From Deltaproteobacteria bacterium (GTDB lineage: Bacteria; Myxococcota_A; UBA796; SXON01): a DNA stretch of 64,000 nucleotides. A program made the position numbers and the translations under genes. Numbering within the stretch: the first letter of the stretch is position 1; every line of letters begins with the position of its first letter. The notes under the pieces were generated by a model. That model was not told the DNA's origin. It worked only from the letters and a program-made list of their open reading frames with translations, and did not search any database. The stretch lies in contig BJHF01000006.1 of the NCBI GenBank assembly GCA_014191855.1, positions 1 through 64,000 on the forward strand. Direction: 5' to 3'. Shown here in pieces: positions 14,591 to 27,198 of this stretch.

Positions 14591-17104
14591 TCACCAACGC
14601 CGACGAGATTGCCGGCGACGTAGAACTGCACTCAGTAGCACGCCCACCCCGAGCGCCGACGCGCTGCTCGACCCGGACGCGCACCCGCAATCGGGCCCCG
14701 GAAGATCCGCGGTGTCGCCTGGTGGCGTGCGCCCCTCGCCGTCCTCTGCCGTATCGGCCGTGTCCACCGTATCGGACGTGTCCGCGGTGTCGCCCGAATC
14801 CACCGGTTCACCGCCTTCGCCGTCGCAGTCTTGATCGATTCCATCGCCGGCTGGGTCTGGGGCGCCGGGGAACACGGTATCGTCCCCATCGTTGCAGGCG
14901 GCGCTGTCCGCGACGTGCCCTGTGGGTTGGTTGCACGACACGACCCGCTCGTTCGCATCCCCGTAGTTGTCATGGTCGTCGTCGTCGTACCACTCCATCG
15001 CGCCGACCGCGGTGTCGGGATCGGTAACGCCGTCGCAGTCGTTGTCGACGCCGTCGCAAACCTCGGTATTGCCAGGCCAACTCAGCGGCTCGGCGTCGTC
15101 GCAGTCGTCGGCCGAGTCGACGTAGCCGAGCGGGGCCTCGCACGCGGTGACGAAGCTGCCGGAATCGCCGTGCGTGTCGGCGTCGCTGTCCGCATACCAG
15201 GTGAGCGCGTCGAGCGCGTCGGCGTTGTCGATCGTGCCATCGCAATCATTGTCCACGGCATCGCACACCTCGGGTGCGCCGGCCCATGCGAGCGCCTCCG
15301 CGTCGTTACAGTCGTTCGCGTTGTCCACATAGTCGGTCGGTGCCGTGCAAGAAACGATGCCGAACAACGGGTTTCCGTAGCCGTCCGCGTCTTCGTCGGT
15401 GTACCAGATCGGTGCGTCCACGGCGCTGTCGTTGTCCACCGTGCCGTCGCAGTCGTTGTCGACCCCGTCGCACCGCTCGGTCGCCCCCATGTAGGCAAGC
15501 GGCTCGGAGTCGTCGCAATCGTCGGTGTTTGCAACGTAGCCGGCGGGGCGGGCGCAGGCGTAGGCCACGGCCGTGGGGTCCCCGTAGCCATCGCCGTCGG
15601 CGTCGAGGTACCACACGGCCGCGTCGGCCGCGCTGTCGTTGTCTACCATGCCGTCGCAGTCGTTATCCGAGCCGTCGCACACTTCGGGGGCGCCGGTCCA
15701 GGCGAGGGCATCGGCGTCATTGCAGTCGCCGGTATTCTCCACGTAGCCGGCGGGTAGGGAGCACGCGGTGGTGGTGGTGCCGCCATCGCCCTGGGTGTCC
15801 CCATCCGCGTCTGCGTACCATGTGAGCGCGTCTGCTGCGTCGTCGTTATCGGCCACGCCGTCGCAATCATTGTCGGCGCCGTCACACACCTCGATTGCGC
15901 CGAGGTGGGCAAGCGGATCGGCGTCATCACAATCATCGAAGCTCGTGACATAGCCGGCAGGTTGGGCGCAGGCCGTCGTGAACGCCGTTGGGTCTCCGTA
16001 CGCGTCCCCGTCGGCATCTGCGTACCAGATCGCGGCGTCCGCGGCGTCATCATTGTCGATGGTTCCGTCGCAATCGTTGTCCACGCCGTCGCAAAGCTCG
16101 GTCGCGCCAGTCCAACTGAGCGGCTCGGTGTCCTTGCAGTCGTCGTCGTTCGCGACGTAGCCGGCGGGCTGGTCGCACGCGACAATCGCGTCGACCGGGT
16201 CGCCATACGTGTCCAGGTCGAGGTCTGCGTACCACGTCCAAGCACCGACGGCGTCGTCATTGTCCACGGTGCCGTCGCAATCATTGTCAACGCCGTCGCA
16301 CAGCTCAGTCGCGCCAGGGTTCACGCCGCCATCGGTGTCGTCACAATCGTCAGCTGGGCCGTATCCGTCCGCGTCGACATCGTAGCCGGCGCCCTGGCCC
16401 CACGAAACCCAGTCAAAAACGTTGGTGGCCAACAAGCTGTCGTCGTAGGTCGTGAGGCGACTGTTGTCCCACATATTGATGTCGCCCAATACCACCACTC
16501 GCCCATTTCCCGCCTCGTTCACCCAGATGAACGTGCCGGTGCTCGTGCTCGCGACCGCCTCACCTTCCGTGGTGAACGTCACGTCTCCCGCGCTCGCCAC
16601 CTTGAGTTGGGACAGGCCGGCGGTGACCGCGTGGGTGGAAAACGTGGTGATCGAGGTGTCCACCCCGTACGTCGTGCCCGTGGTCACACCCCAGATCGCG
16701 GGGATCTCGTTCACGTTCTCAGGCCAGGCCGAGCTGTTGTCCCCGATGATCACCACCCCGCCGCCATCTTCCACGAAGGCCTCGAGAATCGTCGCCTCGG
16801 CGGTGGTGTACGCGGTGTTGTAGGCGGAGGTGACGGGGAGGACGATCACCCCGACGTTCGAGAGGCTGAGCGTGTCGATCCCAGCCGTCGTGACCGTTAC
16901 GGCGTAGCCCTCCGTCGCGAGCTGGGCGACGATCTGGGAGAACTTGTCGGTGGTGGTGTAGCGGCTGGCGGTGCCGTGCGTCTCGTCCCAGAGCACCGTG
17001 GTGTAGTCCCGCGCGGCGGCCGTGGTGGGCGCGCTCAGGAGCAGGATCGCGAGGGCGGGGCGGAACACCGCGGAGCGGAACATCAACGACCGTGAAGCGC
17101 CCAT
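14591..17104 (-). CDS. Large MopE-repeat protein with GATase-like N-domain and MYXO-CTERM tail
   Basis: This is an exported protein of ~837 residues. After the signal peptide (FRPALAILLLSAPTTAAA), residues ~35-240 resemble a DUF4350/GATase1-like Rossmann domain (YTTVLWDETHG, GGGVVIIGD). Then come seven tandem ~68-residue MopE-type metal-binding repeats, each with CDGVDNDCDG and a WYADADGD loop, plus a final partial repeat. A Ser/Thr/Asp linker (DTADTSDTVDTADTAED) leads to a C-terminal DCGC, hydrophobic helix and RRRQSRRRW end, which fits a MYXO-CTERM anchor. Related repeats bind Ca/Cu in MopE. Its role is unknown. Confidence 0.82.
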   Translation of the reverse strand: MGASRSLMFRSAVFRPALAILLLSAPTTAAARDYTTVLWDETHGTASRYTTTDKFSQIVAQLATEGYAVTVTTAGIDTLSLSNVGVIVLPVTSAYNTAYTTAEATILEAFVEDGGGVVIIGDNSSAWPENVNEIPAIWGVTTGTTYGVDTSITTFSTHAVTAGLSQLKVASAGDVTFTTEGEAVASTSTGTFIWVNEAGNGRVVVLGDINMWDNSRLTTYDDSLLATNVFDWVSWGQGAGYDVDADGYGPADDCDDTDGGVNPGATELCDGVDNDCDGTVDNDDAVGAWTWYADLDLDTYGDPVDAIVACDQPAGYVANDDDCKDTEPLSWTGATELCDGVDNDCDGTIDNDDAADAAIWYADADGDAYGDPTAFTTACAQPAGYVTSFDDCDDADPLAHLGAIEVCDGADNDCDGVADNDDAADALTWYADADGDTQGDGGTTTTACSLPAGYVENTGDCNDADALAWTGAPEVCDGSDNDCDGMVDNDSAADAAVWYLDADGDGYGDPTAVAYACARPAGYVANTDDCDDSEPLAYMGATERCDGVDNDCDGTVDNDSAVDAPIWYTDEDADGYGNPLFGIVSCTAPTDYVDNANDCNDAEALAWAGAPEVCDAVDNDCDGTIDNADALDALTWYADSDADTHGDSGSFVTACEAPLGYVDSADDCDDAEPLSWPGNTEVCDGVDNDCDGVTDPDTAVGAMEWYDDDDHDNYGDANERVVSCNQPTGHVADSAACNDGDDTVFPGAPDPAGDGIDQDCDGEGGEPVDSGDTADTSDTVDTADTAEDGEGRTPPGDTADLPGPDCGCASGSSSASALGVGVLLSAVLRRRQSRRRW

Positions 17105-17133
17105 GACATAGCCGAAGTTAGGGCGCAGGCGCC

Positions 17134-18117
17134 ATGTCGCCGAACCCGTCGTTGCCCGTCGAGCCCGCCCGAGTCCCCCGTCACCCGCCGGATCGGAGCG
17201 GGGGAGGGCCGCCGTCGGTGCTGGATGAAACACTGCTTTTGGCTTGCGAGGCGAGCGAGGCGGCGTCGATCGCGGCAGCCTTGCCCTTCGGCGTGCGCTT
17301 CCTGCTGCGCCCCGAGATCACCCCCGTTCAGCGCGCATTCCTCGATCTGCGCGGCTACCTCGTGTTCGACCGGGTGGCCGCCGACGCGGAGGTGGACACC
17401 ATCCTCGCCGAGGTGGACCGCGTCGAGGCGGAGCTGCTTCGCGAGGGCAAGCAGAAGATCAACGGCGTGCCCCTGTGGTTCGGCCCCGACCCGGATGGCC
17501 ACGAGTACCTCTACCGCATGGGCTTCTCCAGCGTGTACAGCCCGTTCCTCTCGAGCTTCGTGCGGGATGCGCGCTTCGAGCCGATCCGCCGCCTGATCGG
17601 CGACGACGCCCGCATCGGCGACCGCGAAAAGGACGGCGTGGTGTTCAACCGCTACATGAACGCCGCGAACAGCCTGCGGCCCAACCTGGCGTGGCACACC
17701 GACGCCTTGCGGGATGTGTTCTACAATTGGCGGATGCCGGGCCCGATGCTGAACGTGGGCCTGCACTTCGACCGGATCCGGCCGGAAGACGGCGGGCTGC
17801 GGGTGTTGCCGGGCACGCATACGCAGAGCGCCTGGTCCACGCTGTTCTCCAAGATTCATTTTGTCACCCAGGCGCCCGACCCCCGCGAGGTGATGGTGGA
17901 AACCTGGCCGGGCGACCTCACGGTACACGACGGGCGGATGTGGCACAAGGTAGACACCAGCCCGAAGCAGGGGTGGGCCTCGCTACGTCGCAGCATGTAC
18001 GTGCCTTATGTGCGGGACGCTGTATTGGAGAAGTCCGAGAACAGCCCCACCCCAATGTATTTGCGGCTCTTCGATGCGATTGTGCGGTGGAAGGCGCGGC
18101 GGGCGCGGGGGAGGTAG
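17134..18117 (+). CDS. Phytanoyl-CoA dioxygenase (PhyH)-family Fe(II)/2-oxoglutarate enzyme
   Basis: This 327-residue predicted non-haem iron oxygenase has its Fe(II) triad as WHTD (His and Asp) and a distal His in VHDGRMWHKV. An Arg follows (LRRSMYVPY) that could bind 2-oxoglutarate. GGLRVLPGTHTQS is the typical PhyH loop. The first ~60 residues are a Pro-rich extension. Family members hydroxylate lipids, amino acids or natural products; the substrate is not predictable. It is divergent from the MopE-repeat gene, with 29 bp between the starts. Confidence 0.82.
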   Translation: MSPNPSLPVEPARVPRHPPDRSGGGPPSVLDETLLLACEASEAASIAAALPFGVRFLLRPEITPVQRAFLDLRGYLVFDRVAADAEVDTILAEVDRVEAELLREGKQKINGVPLWFGPDPDGHEYLYRMGFSSVYSPFLSSFVRDARFEPIRRLIGDDARIGDREKDGVVFNRYMNAANSLRPNLAWHTDALRDVFYNWRMPGPMLNVGLHFDRIRPEDGGLRVLPGTHTQSAWSTLFSKIHFVTQAPDPREVMVETWPGDLTVHDGRMWHKVDTSPKQGWASLRRSMYVPYVRDAVLEKSENSPTPMYLRLFDAIVRWKARRARGR

Positions 18118-19086: not shown

Positions 19087-19542
19087 TCAGAACGCCCACC
19101 CCACGTTGGTGTGTGCGGCCGGGGCTAGTCCATGCACGCCGTACTCCAGCACGCCGTAGTCAAAATAGGAGACGCCGAGGCCGCCCGAGAGCACAAGCCC
19201 CGGGCCGACGATGCCCGTGAAGCCGACGAGGGCGCTGGTGTAACCCCCGAGGTTCGTCGCTGTGTTTGGCACGTTCGTGGAGAGGCTCGCGAGCACGCCG
19301 CGCACCATCACCCACCCGCCGGCCGGTGCCGTGCCCCAAAAGAACCCACGAACCCCCGCCTCCACGCCGACGCCAACATAGGGCCCATTTGCGCCTTCCA
19401 GGATGCCGTCGAAACACTTGACGCTCGGGCCGAGGTAGAGCGAGAAGTGGTGCCCGAGCGTGTGCTCGACTTGCACGTGTGCGAAGCCGATTGCGAGCGT
19501 GAGCGGATCGACGGTGACGGTCCAGTGGAGATCGGGGGTCAT
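19087..19542 (-). CDS. Barrel-like membrane protein at the end of the menaquinone operon
   Basis: This 151-residue protein has an ATG that overlaps the ubiA stop (ATGA). The amphipathic beta pattern, Gly-rich strands (GPYVGVGVEAGVRGFFWG, GLVLSGGLGVSYFDYG) and terminal Phe (NVGWAF) suggest a small outer-membrane barrel, perhaps DUF3575-like. No signal peptide is apparent, so either the start is wrong or it does not follow the normal route. It is the last gene of the operon; a link to quinones is only positional. Confidence 0.6.
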   Translation of the reverse strand: MTPDLHWTVTVDPLTLAIGFAHVQVEHTLGHHFSLYLGPSVKCFDGILEGANGPYVGVGVEAGVRGFFWGTAPAGGWVMVRGVLASLSTNVPNTATNLGGYTSALVGFTGIVGPGLVLSGGLGVSYFDYGVLEYGVHGLAPAAHTNVGWAF

Positions 19543-20387
19543 GGCAGCGCGGCGAACACGGCGACGAAGAAGGCCAGGGAGATGTACCCGTTCAGGTCGA
19601 AGAAGGCTTTGTCGATCTTGGAGAGATCGCCCGGCTTCACGAGGTGGTGCTCGTAGGCGAGTACGGCAGCGATAGCGACGACGCCCACCCAGTAGGGCCA
19701 CCGGAGCGGCTCGACGAAGGGCACCGCCGCAAGCGCCAGCACCGTCAGGATGTGCAGCAGCGAGCTGACATTCATCGCCATGCCCTGGCCGAGGGCAGCG
19801 GGGATGCTGCGCAGGCCGGCGCCTCTGTCGAACTCCTCGTCCTGCAAGGAATAGAGAATATCGAAGCCGGCGACCCAGGTGGCGACCGCGAAGGCGAGGA
19901 TCAACGGTGTTGCCGCGATGCCGCCGGTGATGGCGATCCACGCCGCGATCGGGGCCAACCCAAGCGCGACACCGAGCCACAAATGCACGAGAGAGGTGAA
20001 CCGCTTTCCGAGGCTGTAGCCGCACACGATGAGCAGGGCGACGGGGGACAGCCAGCCACACAAGGGGTGGAGAATGGCTGCGGCCGCCACGAAGATCGCC
20101 GCCGCCGCCGCCGTGAACATGACCGCTGCGGCGAGCGGGATCTGCCCGCTCGGGATCTCCCGAATCGCCGTGCGCGGGTTCTTCGCGTCGATGTGGCGGT
20201 CTACGATCCGATTGAAGCCCATCGCTGCCGAGCGCGCGGTGACCATGCAGAGCACGATCAACGCCCACTGTTGCCAGGTGGTGTCGTGCGTTTGCGCAGC
20301 CAGCAGGCCCGAGGCGAGCGCGAAGGGCATGGCGAAGATCGAGTGGGAGAACTTGATCATGCGGCCGAAGGCGAGGAGGTGGTTCAT
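19539..20387 (-). CDS. mqnP: UbiA-family prenyltransferase, probably MqnP
   Basis: This 282-residue inner-membrane prenyltransferase has eight or nine hydrophobic helices. Prenyl-diphosphate-binding Asp motif 1 is [17 protein letters not shown]; the second is [12 protein letters not shown]. It closely follows the UbiA/MqnP type that attaches a polyprenyl chain to hydroxybenzoate or 1,4-dihydroxy-6-naphthoate. It sits in a futalosine-pathway operon with mqnE and mqnA, so the naphthoate substrate (MqnP) is favoured. Its ATG overlaps the upstream stop and its stop overlaps the next ATG. Confidence 0.85.
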
Positions 20388-21223
20388 GGGTTGCCGGCCT
20401 CTCCGAGGTACGACCAGGCGTCGTCAATGAGGCAGCGGTCCCATCGGTCGGCGGGGACTTGAGGGAAGGCCTCGCGCAGGAGGGCGACGTCGTTGCGGAC
20501 ATCGAGATCGAGGCACGAGGAGAGGGAGTCGGTGCCGACGAGCACGCGCACCTCGCGCTCGAGCATCGCCGGCACGTTGGGGAGACGGCCGGTGATATGC
20601 AGGTTACTACGGGGACATACGCAGATGGTGGCGCCGCGCTCGGCGATCAGCTCCAGGTCGGCCGGCTCGGTGAGCGTGCAGTGGACGAGCAGCGCGTTGG
20701 GCCCGAGCACGCCGAGGGAGTCGAGCCAACGGACGGGGGTCAGGCCGGGCGGCGTCCACGCGGAAAGGTCGCGGCCGAAGGCGCGGAGGTGGTCGGGCCA
20801 GGGGCCGGAGCCATCGCGCAGGAAGTCGCGTTCGGCCTGATCTTCATCGAGGTGGATCGACCAGCGCCGACCGCTCCGCGCGACGGTCTGGATGGTCTGG
20901 GGGTGCGTGCTGTAGGGGGCGTGCGGCGTTCCGTTGGGGAGATCGTCGGCGAGATTGGGCGAGTTGAAGCCGTAGACCTCGTGGAGGGCCAAGCCGGCGA
21001 GGCCCGCCGCTTCCATCGCGGCCTGCCCGACATTGAGGTTGCTGATGTCGATGACCGCGGTGGTACCGTTCGCGGCGAGGGTCCGAGCGTTGGCCAAGGC
21101 AACTTCCGCGCTGGACGGGCCCCCGGCGCGCCACGCGCTGATCCACGCGGGCAGGCCGATCCCGCGCGGGGTTACCGTGTCGGGGATCTCCAGGTGCACG
21201 TGGGCGTTTACGATGCCGCGCAT
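20384..21223 (-). CDS. mqnX: Amidohydrolase, probable aminodeoxyfutalosine deaminase
   Basis: This 279-residue metallo-dependent hydrolase has the metal ligands of the ATZ/TRZ amidohydrolase group: NAHVHLE (HxH), His in SIHLDED, His in LVHCTLTE and Asp in [17 protein letters not shown] is typical of deaminases of this group. At ~280 residues it is shorter than most (400+). Its place between mqnA and mqnP suggests it deaminates 6-amino-6-deoxyfutalosine to futalosine. It starts 4 bp after the mqnA-fusion stop. The symbol rests on context as well as motifs. Confidence 0.72.
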
Positions 21224-21227
21224 GGGC

Positions 21228-23009
21228 TCAGAAGCGGGCGTAGCGCCCGGCGGTTCCCGGTGCCGGATCGAGGATGGGCGTGAGCGTGGTCCAGTCGAGG
21301 TCGCGACGCATCGGCGCGAACCCCGCCACGCGGAGGTGGTGCTCCACCTCCTCCGGGTCGGTCGTCCAGCTCAGGCCGGGCGCGGCGACGATGTGCTCGT
21401 CCACAAGGATGGGGCCGAGGTCGTCGGCGCCGGCGAACAGCGCGGTTTGCGCCGCTCCGAGGCCGACGGTGGGCCACCAGGCGGTGATGTGCGGGACGTT
21501 GTCGAGCACGAGGCGCGCGACGGCGATGAACCGGAGCCACGCCTGCGCCGAGTCATCCGCGCCGGGCGTACCCGACAGCGAAGTCCACGCGCTAAATGCG
21601 GAGAAGCCGGGGCGACCGGTCGCGAGCTCCTCGTCCTGAAAGGCGCGAAGGTCGAAGAGGTGGTCGATGCGCTGGTCGCGACGCTCGCCCAGGCCAAGGG
21701 TGAGGGTGGCCGGGCCGCGGAGACCGGCGGCGCCCGCGAGGCGGTGCATGGCCTGCCATACCGGACGGGCGGCGGCCCCGGTGCGCGTGGGCGCTCCACC
21801 GAACCCGTCGAGGCCGGCCGCGACGAGCCGCGCCATCGCGGCCTCGGGCGTGGTGTTCGCCGCCAAGGCGAGGCCCACGAGATCATCGGCACCAAGCCCG
21901 GTTACGGCGAGGCCGTACTCCGCGTGCAGTCGCTGGATCGCGGCTTCGCACGAGGCGAGCGTGTGGGGCTCGGCCACGCCCGGCTGCAGGATCGCGGCGA
22001 CCGCCTTGGCGGCGACGAGGGCGGACGCCCGTTCATCGAGGTTGGAGAGGGTGAGGTTGCCCGCCATCAAGTACGTGACGTGGCTTCGGGGTTCGCGGGC
22101 GCGCCGGCGCTCGTCGGCGGCGGCGCACAGCTCGGGAGTAGGCGCCGATTGGCAGAGCGCGTGGGCGTCGTCGCGGGTGAGCCGATCCCCAGCCGCGGCT
22201 CGGGACAAGACCGTATCCATCGAGGCGCGCGGCAAGGAGCGCGGCGGCGCGTACAGGCTCAGCTCGCCGGGCCCGAGCAGGCCGGACGCCTGGCCGAGGG
22301 CTACGAATCGTCGCAGGCCCATGAGCGCCCGATCATCAAGGTCATACCGGATGTGTTGGGTGAGGTAGGTGCGCTCGGCCTCGGGGGCGCTGGCGCGCTC
22401 GGGCAGCCCCATCGCGCCGGCGCGCCGCAGGCCGTCGATGGCCGCGACGGGGAGGTCGGGGCGCCCCGCCCACACGGCGAACACGAACGGCAGGCCGGTC
22501 CAGTCCTTCCACGCGCGCCCGAGGTCGATGCGGGTGGTGAGGCGATCCGGCAGGTTCCGGGCGGCATCGCCGATGACCACAGCGCCAGTGCGACCCTGCG
22601 CGTGGAAGGCGCCCGTGCCCGCATCGACCGCCCGCACGGGGAGGTCGGCCCGGTTCAACGGCCCACGAAGCAGGATCTGGGCGAGGATGACGCTGGTGCG
22701 CGACTCGCCGTCGAGCACCACCTCGTCCCACTCCTCAAGCGGGCGCTCGCCGACGAGCAACACGCTGTCCACATCGCCGTCGCTGCCGATGCAGAACCCC
22801 GGCACGATCCGCCACTTCGCGCCATTGTCGAACAAGGAGGCCACGGGCACAAGGCCCACGTCGGCTTCACCCCGGTTGAGCATGCGGGCAGCCGCGCTGG
22901 GCACGCACGGGCGCACGTCGAACAGGGCCGGGTCGAGGTGGCGGGTAAGCGGCCAGGCGTTGGTATAGCCGACACACGCGACGCGGATCCTGGTTTGGGT
23001 CGGGTTCAT
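21228..23009 (-). CDS. mqnA: MqnA chorismate dehydratase fused to a cysteine-less MqnC-like domain
   Basis: This is a 593-residue fusion. Residues ~8-252 are MqnA (VACVGYTNAWPL, GEADVGLVPVASL, SRTSVILAQILL, LPFVFAVWAGR), which dehydrates chorismate to 3-[(1-carboxyvinyl)oxy]benzoate. Residues ~264-593 align along their whole length with the radical SAM enzyme MqnC (LRAFQDEELATG, VLDNVPHITAWWPTVGLGAAQTALFAGADDLG). The cluster motif CxxxCxxC after the conserved Asn is replaced by Asp325, Ser329 and Val332. The SxPGGGAE loop is also lost. The frame is intact, so this is a retained pseudo-enzyme domain rather than decay. The ATG is 1 bp from the mqnE stop. Confidence 0.88.
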   Translation of the reverse strand: MNPTQTRIRVACVGYTNAWPLTRHLDPALFDVRPCVPSAAARMLNRGEADVGLVPVASLFDNGAKWRIVPGFCIGSDGDVDSVLLVGERPLEEWDEVVLDGESRTSVILAQILLRGPLNRADLPVRAVDAGTGAFHAQGRTGAVVIGDAARNLPDRLTTRIDLGRAWKDWTGLPFVFAVWAGRPDLPVAAIDGLRRAGAMGLPERASAPEAERTYLTQHIRYDLDDRALMGLRRFVALGQASGLLGPGELSLYAPPRSLPRASMDTVLSRAAAGDRLTRDDAHALCQSAPTPELCAAADERRRAREPRSHVTYLMAGNLTLSNLDERASALVAAKAVAAILQPGVAEPHTLASCEAAIQRLHAEYGLAVTGLGADDLVGLALAANTTPEAAMARLVAAGLDGFGGAPTRTGAAARPVWQAMHRLAGAAGLRGPATLTLGLGERRDQRIDHLFDLRAFQDEELATGRPGFSAFSAWTSLSGTPGADDSAQAWLRFIAVARLVLDNVPHITAWWPTVGLGAAQTALFAGADDLGPILVDEHIVAAPGLSWTTDPEEVEHHLRVAGFAPMRRDLDWTTLTPILDPAPGTAGRYARF

Positions 23010-23010
23010 G

Positions 23011-24130
<1,120 letters not shown>

Positions 24131-24141
<11 letters not shown>

Positions 24142-24715
24142 TTTCTACTCCGAGCCCGCTCCATCGGCGGAAGAGTTCGTTATCGATGCCCAGGCGATCC
24201 AGCGCCCGGGCCACGACGTGATCCACAAGATCCTGCACGGACTTGGGTTGGTGGTAGAACCCGGGGGAAGCCGGCATCACGACCGCGCCGGCCTCTGCCA
24301 ATTGGGTGAGGTTCCGCAGGTGGATCACCGAGAGCGGCGTTTCCCGGACCACGAGCACCAGCGGGCGGCGCTCCTTGAGCATCACGTCGGCGGCGCGGCC
24401 CACCAGGTCGGTGTTGAGCCCGTGCGCGATCCGGGCGGCGGAGCCGGACGAGCAGGGGATGACCATCATCCCATCGACCCTCGCGCTACCCGAAGCGAAG
24501 GGCGCCGTGAAGTCGCCCGGGTTCCACAGCTTGAAGCCGTAGTTTTCGGGGTCCGTTCCGATCTCGTGGTTCCAGACCAGGCGCCCGGTCTTGGTGAAGA
24601 CGACGTCTGCCTCGATCGTGGTGTGCTCCCGCAGGAATTCCAGGGTGCGGGCGGCGTAGGCGGCACCCGAGGCTCCGGTGATGCCGACGACGATGCGCTT
24701 GATGGGGCCGCTCAC
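24131..24715 (-). CDS. ubiX: Flavin prenyltransferase UbiX
   Basis: This 194-residue protein makes prenylated FMN for a UbiD-type decarboxylase. Motifs are IVVGITGASGAAYAART at the start, IPCSSGSAARIAHG, LKERRPLVLVVRETPLS and MPASPGFYHQP. The GTG at 24715 places the N-terminus right before the flavin-binding loop. In the futalosine route it would serve decarboxylation of the prenylated naphthoate. No ubiD-like partner is in this window. A 20-bp direct repeat at 24712-24751 separates it from ubiE. Confidence 0.93.
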
Positions 24716-24751
24716 AGCGCCTTCCCGACGATCACAGCGCCTTCCGGGCGA
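24712..24751. repeat. 20-bp direct duplication at the ubiE-ubiX junction
   Basis: Two adjacent 20-bp units both begin TCACAGCGCCTTCC (24712-24731 and 24732-24751). One carries the ubiE stop, the other the ubiX GTG together with a second TGA. Without the duplication the genes would overlap as GTGA. Confidence 0.75.
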
Positions 24752-25454
24752 TGACGATGCTCGCGACGGGCGGGAACAGCTCGCGGCCGGTGACCTCGGC
24801 GAACCCGGAGTTGCGGCACATGGTTTGGAAGCCCTCGCGGTCGGTCCACGCGGCCATGCTGTCGGCCAGGTAGCGGTAGGCGCTTGCATCCCCGGCCACG
24901 AGCCCGCCGACGAGCGGGAGCATGACGCGGTTGTAGGTGCCGGCGAGGAACCGGGCGAACCACGTGGTCGGCCTGAAGAAGTCGACGACCACGAACACGC
25001 CCCCTGGCCGGAGCACGCGGAACGTCTCGGCGACCGCGCGCTCCGGCTCCGGCACATTGCGGACACCGAAGCCGGCGACGGCAGCGTTGAAGCCGCTGTC
25101 TTGCAGCGGCATCTCGCGCGCATCCGCGCATACGATCCGGGCGTTCGGGGCCTTGTGTCGGCCGCGGTCGAGCATCTCCTGGCAGAAGTCGAGCGCGGTG
25201 AGGGAGCGGGCACGATCCTTGAGCATCCCGGAGAAGTCCATGGTGCCGGCGCAGAGATCGAGCACATCTCCATCGGCGGTGGGGCCCAGCTCGCGGATGG
25301 CGATATTGCGCCAGGCGCGATCAATCCCGAGAGACATCAGGGCGTTGGCCCGATCGTATCCGGTGGCGATGCGGGCAAACATGTCGCGGACGGCGGGGGC
25401 GCGGGTGGGATCGCCCGCAACGGGAACGAGCGGGGCCTCCGGTGCGGGCGTCAT
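24732..25454 (-). CDS. ubiE: Demethylmenaquinone methyltransferase
   Basis: This 240-residue class I SAM methyltransferase is the UbiE/MenG type that performs the last C-methylation of menaquinone. Motifs are MFARIATGYDRANALMSLG near the N-terminus, SAM loop VLDLCAGTMDF, ALDFCQEML, GFGVRNVPEPERAV and VLRPGGVFVVVDF. Its ATG overlaps the stop of the polyprenyl synthase gene by 4 bp. In a menaquinone operon, menG would be an equally good symbol. Confidence 0.93.
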   Translation of the reverse strand: MTPAPEAPLVPVAGDPTRAPAVRDMFARIATGYDRANALMSLGIDRAWRNIAIRELGPTADGDVLDLCAGTMDFSGMLKDRARSLTALDFCQEMLDRGRHKAPNARIVCADAREMPLQDSGFNAAVAGFGVRNVPEPERAVAETFRVLRPGGVFVVVDFFRPTTWFARFLAGTYNRVMLPLVGGLVAGDASAYRYLADSMAAWTDREGFQTMCRNSGFAEVTGRELFPPVASIVIARKAL

Positions 25455-26524
25455 GTCGCCCGGTCCACGAGGTAGGAGCCGAGGATAGCGAGGGAGTCGC
25501 GGTCGGGGCCGGGGGGGAGCGCGTTGAGGGAGGCGAGGGCGGCCTTCACCCGAGCGCGGGCTTCGTTGAGCGCGGCTTCGAGGGCGCCAGAAGCGCGGAT
25601 CTCGGCGACGAGCGCGGGTAGCTCGGCCGGCGTGGGGGCCCGGGCTTCGAGGCGGGCACGGAGCCCAGGGATGCGGAGCATGGCGTGCACGAGGGGCAAG
25701 GTGAGCTTCCGCTCCCGCAGGTCGGCCCCGGCGAGCTTGCCGGTGCCCTCGGCATAATCCAGCACATCATCCGTGATCTGGAAGGCGACCCCGACACCAC
25801 GGCCGAAGCGGGCGAGCGCATCGGCTGCCGCGTCGTCCCCGGCGGCGTAGGCACCTGCCGCAGCGGACCAGGCGATCAGCGCGGCCGACTTCTTGTCGAC
25901 CATCTCGAGGTAGTGTTCGAGCGTGGTGTGGAGGTTGCCGGCGCGCTGCAATTGGAGAACTTCACCCTCGGCCATCGCGGTGACGGCCCGGGCGAGCTCG
26001 GTGACGGCGCGGTGGCCGCCCGCCTCGGCGGCGAGGAGCACCGCGCGAGCCAGGCAGAAGTCCCCCGTGAGGATCGTGGCCGCGTTTCCGTAAACGATGT
26101 GCGCGGCGGGGCGGTTGCGACGCAGCTCGGCCCCGTCCACCACGTCGTCGTGGAGGAGCGAGCCGAGGTGGATCAGCTCCCCCACGCACATGAGGCCAGA
26201 AAGATCACCGCAAAAGCCGACAACGCCCGCGCCGAGCACGGTGAGCATGGGGCGGAGGCGCTTGCCGCCCGCGTCCACGAGGTAGCGACCGACCGCCTCC
26301 ACGACATCGACATCGCTGCCCACCAGCGCGCGGAGACGAGCTTCACCCTCACGAATGGTCGGGGCGATGCGGGCGAACACCACCTCTGGGCCGCCGATGG
26401 CGACGCGCGGGAGGGGCCCGGCGAGGCCCTCGGGCTCCGTGCGGCGTACGACCGCGGCGACAAGCGTGGAGCCGCCAGGTGGCAGCGTGCCGGGGTCTAC
26501 GGCGCTTCGGGGTTCCGGGTCCAT
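25451..26524 (-). CDS. Long-chain polyprenyl diphosphate synthase
   Basis: This 357-residue trans-prenyl transferase provides the quinone side chain. The first Asp-rich motif is LLHDDVVDGAELRRNRPA; the second is QITDDVLDYAEG. GGKRLRPML is the usual IPP-binding segment. The ATG at 26524 was chosen because GGAGG lies 5 nt before it; a GTG at 26551 is also in frame. It is the first gene of the eight-gene menaquinone operon. An 18-bp inverted repeat lies 31 bp upstream. Chain length is not predictable here. Confidence 0.92.
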   Translation of the reverse strand: MDPEPRSAVDPGTLPPGGSTLVAAVVRRTEPEGLAGPLPRVAIGGPEVVFARIAPTIREGEARLRALVGSDVDVVEAVGRYLVDAGGKRLRPMLTVLGAGVVGFCGDLSGLMCVGELIHLGSLLHDDVVDGAELRRNRPAAHIVYGNAATILTGDFCLARAVLLAAEAGGHRAVTELARAVTAMAEGEVLQLQRAGNLHTTLEHYLEMVDKKSAALIAWSAAAGAYAAGDDAAADALARFGRGVGVAFQITDDVLDYAEGTGKLAGADLRERKLTLPLVHAMLRIPGLRARLEARAPTPAELPALVAEIRASGALEAALNEARARVKAALASLNALPPGPDRDSLAILGSYLVDRAT

Positions 26525-26554
26525 CGAATCCTCCGCCACTGGTCGCTTCACACA

Positions 26555-26572
26555 TTTCAGTGTTAACTGAAA
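26555..26572. promoter_or_regulatory. Operator-like inverted repeat between divergent genes
   Basis: TTTCAGT-GTTA-ACTGAAA is a perfect 7-bp inverted repeat with a 4-bp spacer. It is A+T-rich against G+C-rich surroundings. It sits 31 bp before the polyprenyl synthase ATG and 21 bp before the chosen start of the divergent GbsR/MarR-like regulator, so it could control both. Confidence 0.6.
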
Positions 26573-26592
26573 CGGGTGAGGTCTGCCAGCCC

Positions 26593-27198
26593 GTGACGCC
26601 GTTGCTCGACGCTGAACCCGCGCCCACCAGCCCCGAGCCGCCGGGCGCGGGGCTGCGCGACCAGGCGGCGAGGGATCGGGCGATTCTCCTGGTGGCCGAG
26701 GCCATCGGCGAGATCATCGGCTTCTGGAACTTCAAGCCCTCGATGGGTCGGGTGTGGACCGTGTTGTACCTCTCGGCCGACCCGCTGGACGCGGAGCAGA
26801 TCGAGGCGCGCACCGGGCTGAGCTCCGGCATGGTGAGCACCACGCTCAACGAGCTGTTGCAGTGGGGCGTCATACGGAAACATCCGGCGCCCGGCGAGCG
26901 GCGGCGGCTGTTCGTGGCCGAAACGGACGTGTGGATGCTCGTGGCCCGCGTGTTTCGCGAGCGAGAATTGCGGATGGTCGGCCGGGCGATCGAGCAGCTT
27001 GAAGCGGCGCTGGTGATCCTCGACGCAGACGGGCGGGGCGCCAGCCCCGGCGCCATGCACCAGAGCCGATTTCTGCACACGCGGGTGACGCGGATCCTCG
27101 AGTTGGCGCGCACCGGCCAGAAGCTGATCGATCGGTTCAGCCGCACCGGGAGCGCGAACCTTCGGCCGTTGAGGGATGTTCTGGCCGCCGCGCGATGA
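26593..27198 (+). CDS. GbsR/MarR-like transcriptional regulator
   Basis: This ~201-residue DNA-binding protein starts at GTG 26593; an earlier GTG at 26560 lies inside the palindrome. A winged-helix is visible: GFWNFKPSMGRVWTVLYLS, DAEQIEARTGLSSGMVSTTLNELLQWGVI and the wing PAPGERRRLFVAE. This is the GbsR-type arrangement. The C-terminal part is helical (dimerisation). Divergent placement over an operator-like palindrome suggests it controls itself and the menaquinone operon; the ligand is unknown. Confidence 0.8.
   Translation: MTPLLDAEPAPTSPEPPGAGLRDQAARDRAILLVAEAIGEIIGFWNFKPSMGRVWTVLYLSADPLDAEQIEARTGLSSGMVSTTLNELLQWGVIRKHPAPGERRRLFVAETDVWMLVARVFRERELRMVGRAIEQLEAALVILDADGRGASPGAMHQSRFLHTRVTRILELARTGQKLIDRFSRTGSANLRPLRDVLAAAR

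Follow-up and report, generated by a model that had tools for sequence, protein, structure and literature searches.

Pseudoenzyme domains and the displacement of one gene by another are known kinds of evolutionary outcome. Displacements of quinone-pathway genes have been predicted by inferring replacement from complementary gene distribution, as we do here; in the accessible part of that source (PMC4746308) they involve alternative enzymes at other steps, whereas at the locus described below the replacement would be an MqnC-like protein that has diverged, and MqnA would still carry the displaced domain. Two mqnC paralogues in one genome are described in the accessible part of PMC3937554, and one of them, SCO4494, names the MqnE model used in this work. 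Where fusions are mentioned in the available portions of five papers (PMC3914697, PMC4746308, PMC13386864, PMC3937554 and PMC4763440), they are never of MqnA with MqnC, and among the literature titles searched, which cover few subscription journals, none concerned an MqnA–MqnC fusion or a degenerate MqnC.

Here we describe a gene of this kind in a 64,000-nucleotide stretch of Myxococcota DNA (contig BJHF01000006.1, positions 1–64,000; hereafter the window). Its closest known counterparts are the intact MqnA–MqnC fusions of Myxococcota, which have the same domain order, the same operon position after MqnE and homology over the whole length. The intact fusions have retained both CxxxCxxC and PGGGAE and score above or close to the cut-off of the MqnC model, whereas the cluster loop of the window's fusion is deleted.

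The fusion gene and its operon

The fusion gene (21231–23009, minus strand; 593 residues, stop codon at 21228–21230) is an unbroken frame, as originally claimed, and begins at 23009, one base past the mqnE stop codon. It sits within what looks like a menaquinone operon. Genes that are close or overlapping, all on the minus strand, encode in order a polyprenyl diphosphate synthase-like protein (25451–26551; TIGR02748 180.5 bits, under cut-off), a MenG/UbiE methyltransferase (24732–25454; TIGR01934 203.4 bits, cut-off 158.35), a UbiX family flavin prenyltransferase (24131–24727; TIGR00421 203.8 bits, cut-off 108.9), the aminofutalosine synthase MqnE (23011–24141; TIGR03700 506.7 bits, cut-off 434.55), the fusion, an amidohydrolase that is possibly an aminofutalosine deaminase (20384–21223; NF006269 64.5 bits, far under the cut-off of 320) and a UbiA-type prenyltransferase, a candidate MqnP (19539–20387; TIGR01475 279.8 bits, cut-off 180.8). 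MqnE has a complete CxxxCxxC, in agreement with the original prediction. The co-expression of the fusion with mqnE that was also asserted is suggested by gene order only. The UbiA-type prenyltransferase scores 257–271 bits on the MqnP models, under their cut-offs. At 279 residues, the amidohydrolase covers no more than a portion of the aminofutalosine deaminase model (408 positions) and is a candidate for a divergent or short deaminase. A possible regulator (26479–27198, plus strand; weak CudC match, 40.9 bits, cut-off 218) reads away from the operon start, and an 880-residue frame with many CDGVDNDCDG-type repeats lies at 14591–17233 (minus strand).

Residues 1–255 (22245–23009) are MqnA, a predicted chorismate dehydratase. 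They match PF02621 with 130.6 bits against a cut-off of 26, the nearest solved structures in a structure search are MqnA enzymes, and residues including N17 and S103–S106 are invariant across our alignment with the intact fusions (alignment A1). A second PF02621 gene in the same genome, on contig C78, is presumably MqnD; the C78 stretch received no NCBIfam name at E ≤ 1e-5.

The rest of the protein is composed of a linker and the N-terminal helices of the former MqnC (residues 256–310; 22080–22244; delimited by alignment A1) and a degenerate MqnC barrel (residues 311–575; 21285–22079). The best NCBIfam match of this C-terminal part is the MqnC model TIGR03699, with 136 bits over residues 328–574 (model positions 81–340 of 342), followed by the MqnE model TIGR03700 with 85.7 bits. 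Its best-kept part, the CofH_C segment (residues 486–573; 21291–21554), matches PF19288 with 67.1 bits, over the cut-off of 27. The kinship to MqnC that had been proposed is thus borne out by profile search. Descent from MqnE was considered and is ruled out by the higher score on the MqnC model together with the presence of an intact MqnC at the same place in relatives. The domain is like MqnC in its best family match and in the CofH_C segment; it is unlike MqnC in falling well short of the TIGR03699 cut-off (428.1 bits), in lacking both the cysteines and PGGGAE, and in giving no PF04055 Radical_SAM match at E ≤ 0.1 anywhere in the fusion protein.

Intact fusions in related genomes

We searched 63 genomes of the order to which the window belongs with the TIGR03699 and PF02621 profiles. 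PF02621 was present in 49 and a readable MqnA locus in 48; the remaining genome, G055, showed MqnE and one MqnD-like PF02621 match only. An intact fused MqnC, with both CxxxCxxC and PGGGAE, was found in 12 of the 48 (TIGR03699 430–469 bits, all over cut-off): 10 are from other genera of the window's family, and the others are G033 and G036. Fusions with intact cysteines also occur in other Myxococcota records, for example Polyangiaceae and Labilithrix, with the motif CTTSCRFC. In Gemmatimonadota, Planctomycetota and Actinomycetota, mqnA and mqnC are mostly separate frames among the loci listed; in one Gemmatimonadota locus (L100), an MqnC match lies inside an 802-residue frame. The search of related genomes thus returned intact forms in sister genera and other Myxococcota, and the gutted form in congeners of the window's organism. 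Given the intact fusions, the MqnA–MqnC fusion itself is nothing special; the gutting of its MqnC domain is.

Other arrangements were noted in the same survey. In family f4, 9 of 9 genomes with MqnA encode it in a single stop-free frame together with MqnE, the two being connected by a linker of 12–30 residues (L040, 631–4527, minus strand; also L030, L036, L037, L042, L043, L046, L047 and L048). The L040 frame, from G033, has 1299 residues and is a triple fusion of MqnE, MqnA and intact MqnC. Downstream of its intact fusion, G036 carries a further, incomplete copy of the C-terminal half of MqnC that lacks the cysteines (L053, 6570–7472, plus strand; TIGR03699 positions 192–342, 184 bits). Two loci, L055 and L072, bear Klebsiella pneumoniae in their public titles, yet match the uncultured order; these labels look wrong.

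Deletion of the cluster loop

The original prediction read the cluster site as three substitutions, with Asp325, Ser329 and Val332 in place of the cysteines. That reading came from a gapless alignment and is ruled out: the whole 27-residue block carrying CxxxCxxC is deleted, at about residues 323–325 (22035–22043). The distance from N318 to Q342 is 24 residues in the window's fusion against 51 in 12 of 12 intact fused relatives (alignment A1). The PGGGAE loop is lost through another shortening, of about 11 residues, which leaves a remnant at residues 403–416 (21762–21803; alignment A1), so that the original statement on the SxPGGGAE loop stands. The domain had also been called full-length; it is MqnC-derived along its length, with these two segments, at the Cys loop and around PGGGAE, gone. 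As judged from the missing cysteines, the missing PGGGAE loop and the failure to match Radical_SAM, the MqnC-derived domain cannot be a radical SAM enzyme, which supports the proposal that a catalytically dead MqnC is carried on MqnA.

The same shortening, of 27–28 residues, is found in all eight full-length fusions of the genus, the window's own included, in stop-free frames: the spacing is 24 in seven and 23 in one, and the three Cys columns are gaps in all eight. These congeners are separately assembled species whose fusions are 72–82% identical to that of the window. That the genomes are drafts is what could be said for an assembly or sequencing artefact or a chance frame; recurrence in eight separately assembled species, with no stops in the frames, excludes chance or sequencing error and leaves such an origin with a negligible probability.

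An AlphaFold2 model of the fusion, built from a 20-row alignment, has a mean pLDDT of 89.1 and a pTM of 0.58, the relative placement of the two domains being unsure. In the model, helices are found at 264–305, and strand 310–320 passes directly into helix 321–333, with a barrel-like domain still predicted to form. Averaged in blocks of 10 over residues 311–575, pLDDT is mostly 80–98, and lower at 471–490 and 531–550. The gutted domain is therefore predicted as a confident barrel-like fold. In a Foldseek search, the second half of the model resembled Pedobacter heparinus MqnE (PDB 6xi9 and 6xig; TM by target 0.69–0.70), which has 20% identity over the aligned part and, unlike the gutted domain, is an active radical SAM enzyme. 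A fusion from family f5 (L066, apparently the same gene as that of G029, judged by gene length, score and place) was modelled as well; its mean pLDDT is 83.4, with weaker stretches inside the domain.

A separate MqnC-like protein

We considered whether the genome is without another MqnC and can rule this out. A separate MqnC-like gene with an intact cluster motif, CVARCDYC, is encoded on contig C93. We name the family of this unlinked protein MqnC2. The best NCBIfam match of the C93 protein is TIGR03699 with 298.8 bits, under cut-off, and MqnE is next with 211. MqnC2 copies carry CVARCDYC or CVAKCDYC in 36 of 36 genomes and score 265–303 bits on TIGR03699 (206 for one cut-off copy) against the cut-off of 428. 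At 19 positions that discriminate MqnC from MqnE, MqnC2 has the MqnC residue at 8, the MqnE residue at 1 and neither at 10. Since true CofH reaches 310 bits on TIGR03699, that score alone cannot name MqnC2, and its naming as MqnC is weakened a little. A third apparent MqnC in G051 (C470), also a strong TIGR03699 match, was rejected: it is CofH (433.7 bits, cut-off 374.1).

Among 10 frames in five MqnC2 loci, 6 of which had a Pfam match, none was a quinone gene. Among 377 sampled genomes of the phylum, G277 is the only one outside the order with MqnC2, at 63% identity; in a search of plasmids, 73 of 73 records matched at below 60% identity. G047 (L146 and L150) and G028 (L152 and L160) have two MqnC2 copies each.

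A rewired cyclisation step, one of the roles suggested originally for the dead domain, is unnecessary because the same genome encodes this separate protein. From its distribution, MqnC2 is most likely the working cyclase of dehypoxanthine futalosine.

Complementary distribution of fused MqnC and MqnC2

Within the order, none of the 12 genomes that have an intact fused MqnC carries MqnC2, whereas all 36 with MqnA but no intact fused MqnC do, the window's genome among them. Because the 12 genomes are 79–95% complete, loss of MqnC2 to draft gaps in all of them is unlikely. The 36 comprise 33 without CxxxCxxC after MqnA; G013, which keeps CLAGCSFC and has PGAGAE in place of PGGGAE (N318–Q342 equivalent spacing of 46); and G010 and G051, whose tails are uninformative because the contig ends directly after MqnA, leaving 34 informative genomes. 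G041 and G057 also run into a contig end, but past the Cys region. Outside the order, the fused domain of G277 keeps CTARCTFC and has lost PGGGAE, and it matches TIGR03699 only to position 299 (313.4 bits, under cut-off), whereas another member of its family, G288, carries an intact fusion and gave no MqnC2-like match at the identity of the G277 copy (63%).

In a midpoint-rooted tree of 101 of 245 radical SAM segments, MqnC2 is one clade (SH-aLRT 100) with a long stem of 2.44 changes per column. The placement of the degenerate fused copies, which lie on very long branches, was not used. The G277 MqnC2 falls inside a 14-row group (SH-aLRT 99) in which all other rows are from family f3, and the G013 copy groups with two f4 copies (SH-aLRT 97), apart from the window's genus. 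This nesting points to movement of MqnC2 between lineages by transfer.

The number of events was examined on an rpoB tree. A search of 60 genomes yielded rpoB in 37 (G013, G012 and G014 are among those without it); 35 are in the tree (G030 and G034 were left out) and 29 have a state. The states need four changes, with three independent pairs on starred, well-supported branches and four on all branches. A sign test on the three pairs gives p 0.25; because both traits coincide in every genome used, the pairs count events and do not test association.

From this distribution, we consider it very probable that MqnC2 replaced the fused MqnC, which then decayed. The opposite order of events would make the gutted fusion and MqnC2 ancestral in the order, with the 12 intact copies regained by transfer. 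MqnC2-bearing genomes are indeed the majority (36 of 48), and MqnC2 itself seems to have moved between lineages; against this, the order's intact fused copies adjoin in the midpoint-rooted tree, apart from other Myxococcota copies, and we regard such a regain as improbable.

Remains of the decayed domain

If the fused domain lost its catalytic role, the question is what has happened to the remainder. Mean pN/pS across the eight congeners is lowest in MqnE (0.171), followed by MqnA (0.216), MqnC2 (0.245) and residues 481–575 (0.253); residues 311–575 reach 0.361 and the linker 0.643. With synonymous sites close to saturation (pS about 0.55), these values are rough. Of 265 domain positions, 122 are invariant, 49 of these ancestral and 46 newly fixed.

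We then surveyed the 36 non-intact tails with an HMM built from the 12 intact fused domains. At a lenient threshold, positions 241–340 were found in 69–86% of the tails and positions 21–60 in 69–78%, against 13–20% for positions 61–100 and 28–33% for positions 101–200. In these per-genome counts, some weak matches reach only 2–12 bits, related genomes are entered separately and the two cut tails count as absent. Counted by genus (19 with non-intact copies) at i-E of 0.5 and 0.001, respectively, the N-terminal helices were found in 17 and 15 and the C-terminal segment in 16 and 15, against 3 and 3 for the Cys loop and 4 and 4 for the core; in one of the three genomes scored for the Cys loop, G005, the match consists solely of sequence flanking the deletion. 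The missing core cannot be put down to detectability, because the information of the HMM is similar along the domain (0.49 bits per position for 1–60, 0.66 for 61–100, 0.63 for 101–200 and 0.64 for 241–340). The N- and C-terminal parts are kept in all four families with decayed copies. Contig-cut copies aside, the tails range from 119 to 352 residues. G007 and G008, of the window's genus, have lost most of the domain and keep about 125 residues after MqnA, in which a weak match to the C-terminal segment (8 and 9 bits) is all that can be recognised; the greater part of the shell is therefore dispensable.

These data bear on whether the shell does anything at all. The takeover could have happened as described and the fused domain be a functionless relic on its way out. 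This would account for the variable length of the decayed tails, for the loss of most of the domain in G007 and G008, for a linker pN/pS of 0.64 and for a domain that evolves faster than MqnA. It sits less well with a domain pN/pS of 0.36, with the 122 invariant positions among congeners, with the confident predicted fold and with the retention of similar segments in four families, and we hold it to be unlikely, although the strongest of the alternatives.

Less likely still, in our estimation, would be a pseudoenzyme with an active part in the pathway, channelling or regulating it through binding of an intermediate by the gutted domain or through docking of MqnC2 or MqnE. Strict co-occurrence with MqnC2, the 46 newly fixed positions in the genus and the operon neighbourhood of mqnE are all consistent with such a part. 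However, MqnC2 is retained in G007 and G008, where the domain is nearly gone, and the core, the presumed seat of SAM and substrate, is the part most often lost; we consider this reading doubtful.

A structural role of the shell, as suggested by purifying selection and the confident model, remains our best guess. That it supports MqnA in particular is a proposal to which we give about an even chance.

Discussion

We propose that the gene descends from a bifunctional MqnA–MqnC fusion, and that the radical SAM step that cyclises dehypoxanthine futalosine passed to MqnC2, a divergent protein encoded elsewhere in the genome. The arrival of MqnC2 would have come before the decay of the fused MqnC. 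Once released from catalysis, the fused domain would have lost its cluster loop and its PGGGAE loop, while purifying selection would have continued to act on the N-terminal helices, on a fold resembling a barrel and, most of all, on the CofH_C segment. The protein would now act as MqnA only, and the gutted domain may support MqnA through folding, solubility or oligomer contacts. Taken as a whole, this account of takeover, gutting and a remaining shell that most likely supports MqnA seems to us probable.

The gutting seems to have occurred more than once, sparing similar outer parts each time. We tentatively suggest, at somewhat less than even likelihood, that this was convergent gutting after takeover by a nearly order-bound family, with the shell being a non-catalytic module that is needed by MqnA or that docks MqnC2.

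The genomes can be arranged as a series, from the intact fusion, through copies in which the cysteines are kept and PGGGAE is altered (G013, and G277 outside the order) and those in which the Cys loop is deleted (the window's genus), to copies in which the domain is mostly gone (G007 and G008). This natural series bears on how a fused catalytic domain dies after its replacement arrives, and on which part survives. What is new is a replicated series of fused-domain gutting in the menaquinone pathway, tied to a new MqnC-like family. The case further indicates a divergent MqnC-like family whose members fall short of the curated MqnC model's cut-off; annotation relying on that threshold would list these genomes as MqnC-less. 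If the convergent reading is true, the series would show nature repeatedly turning a bifunctional enzyme into one that carries its own chaperone.
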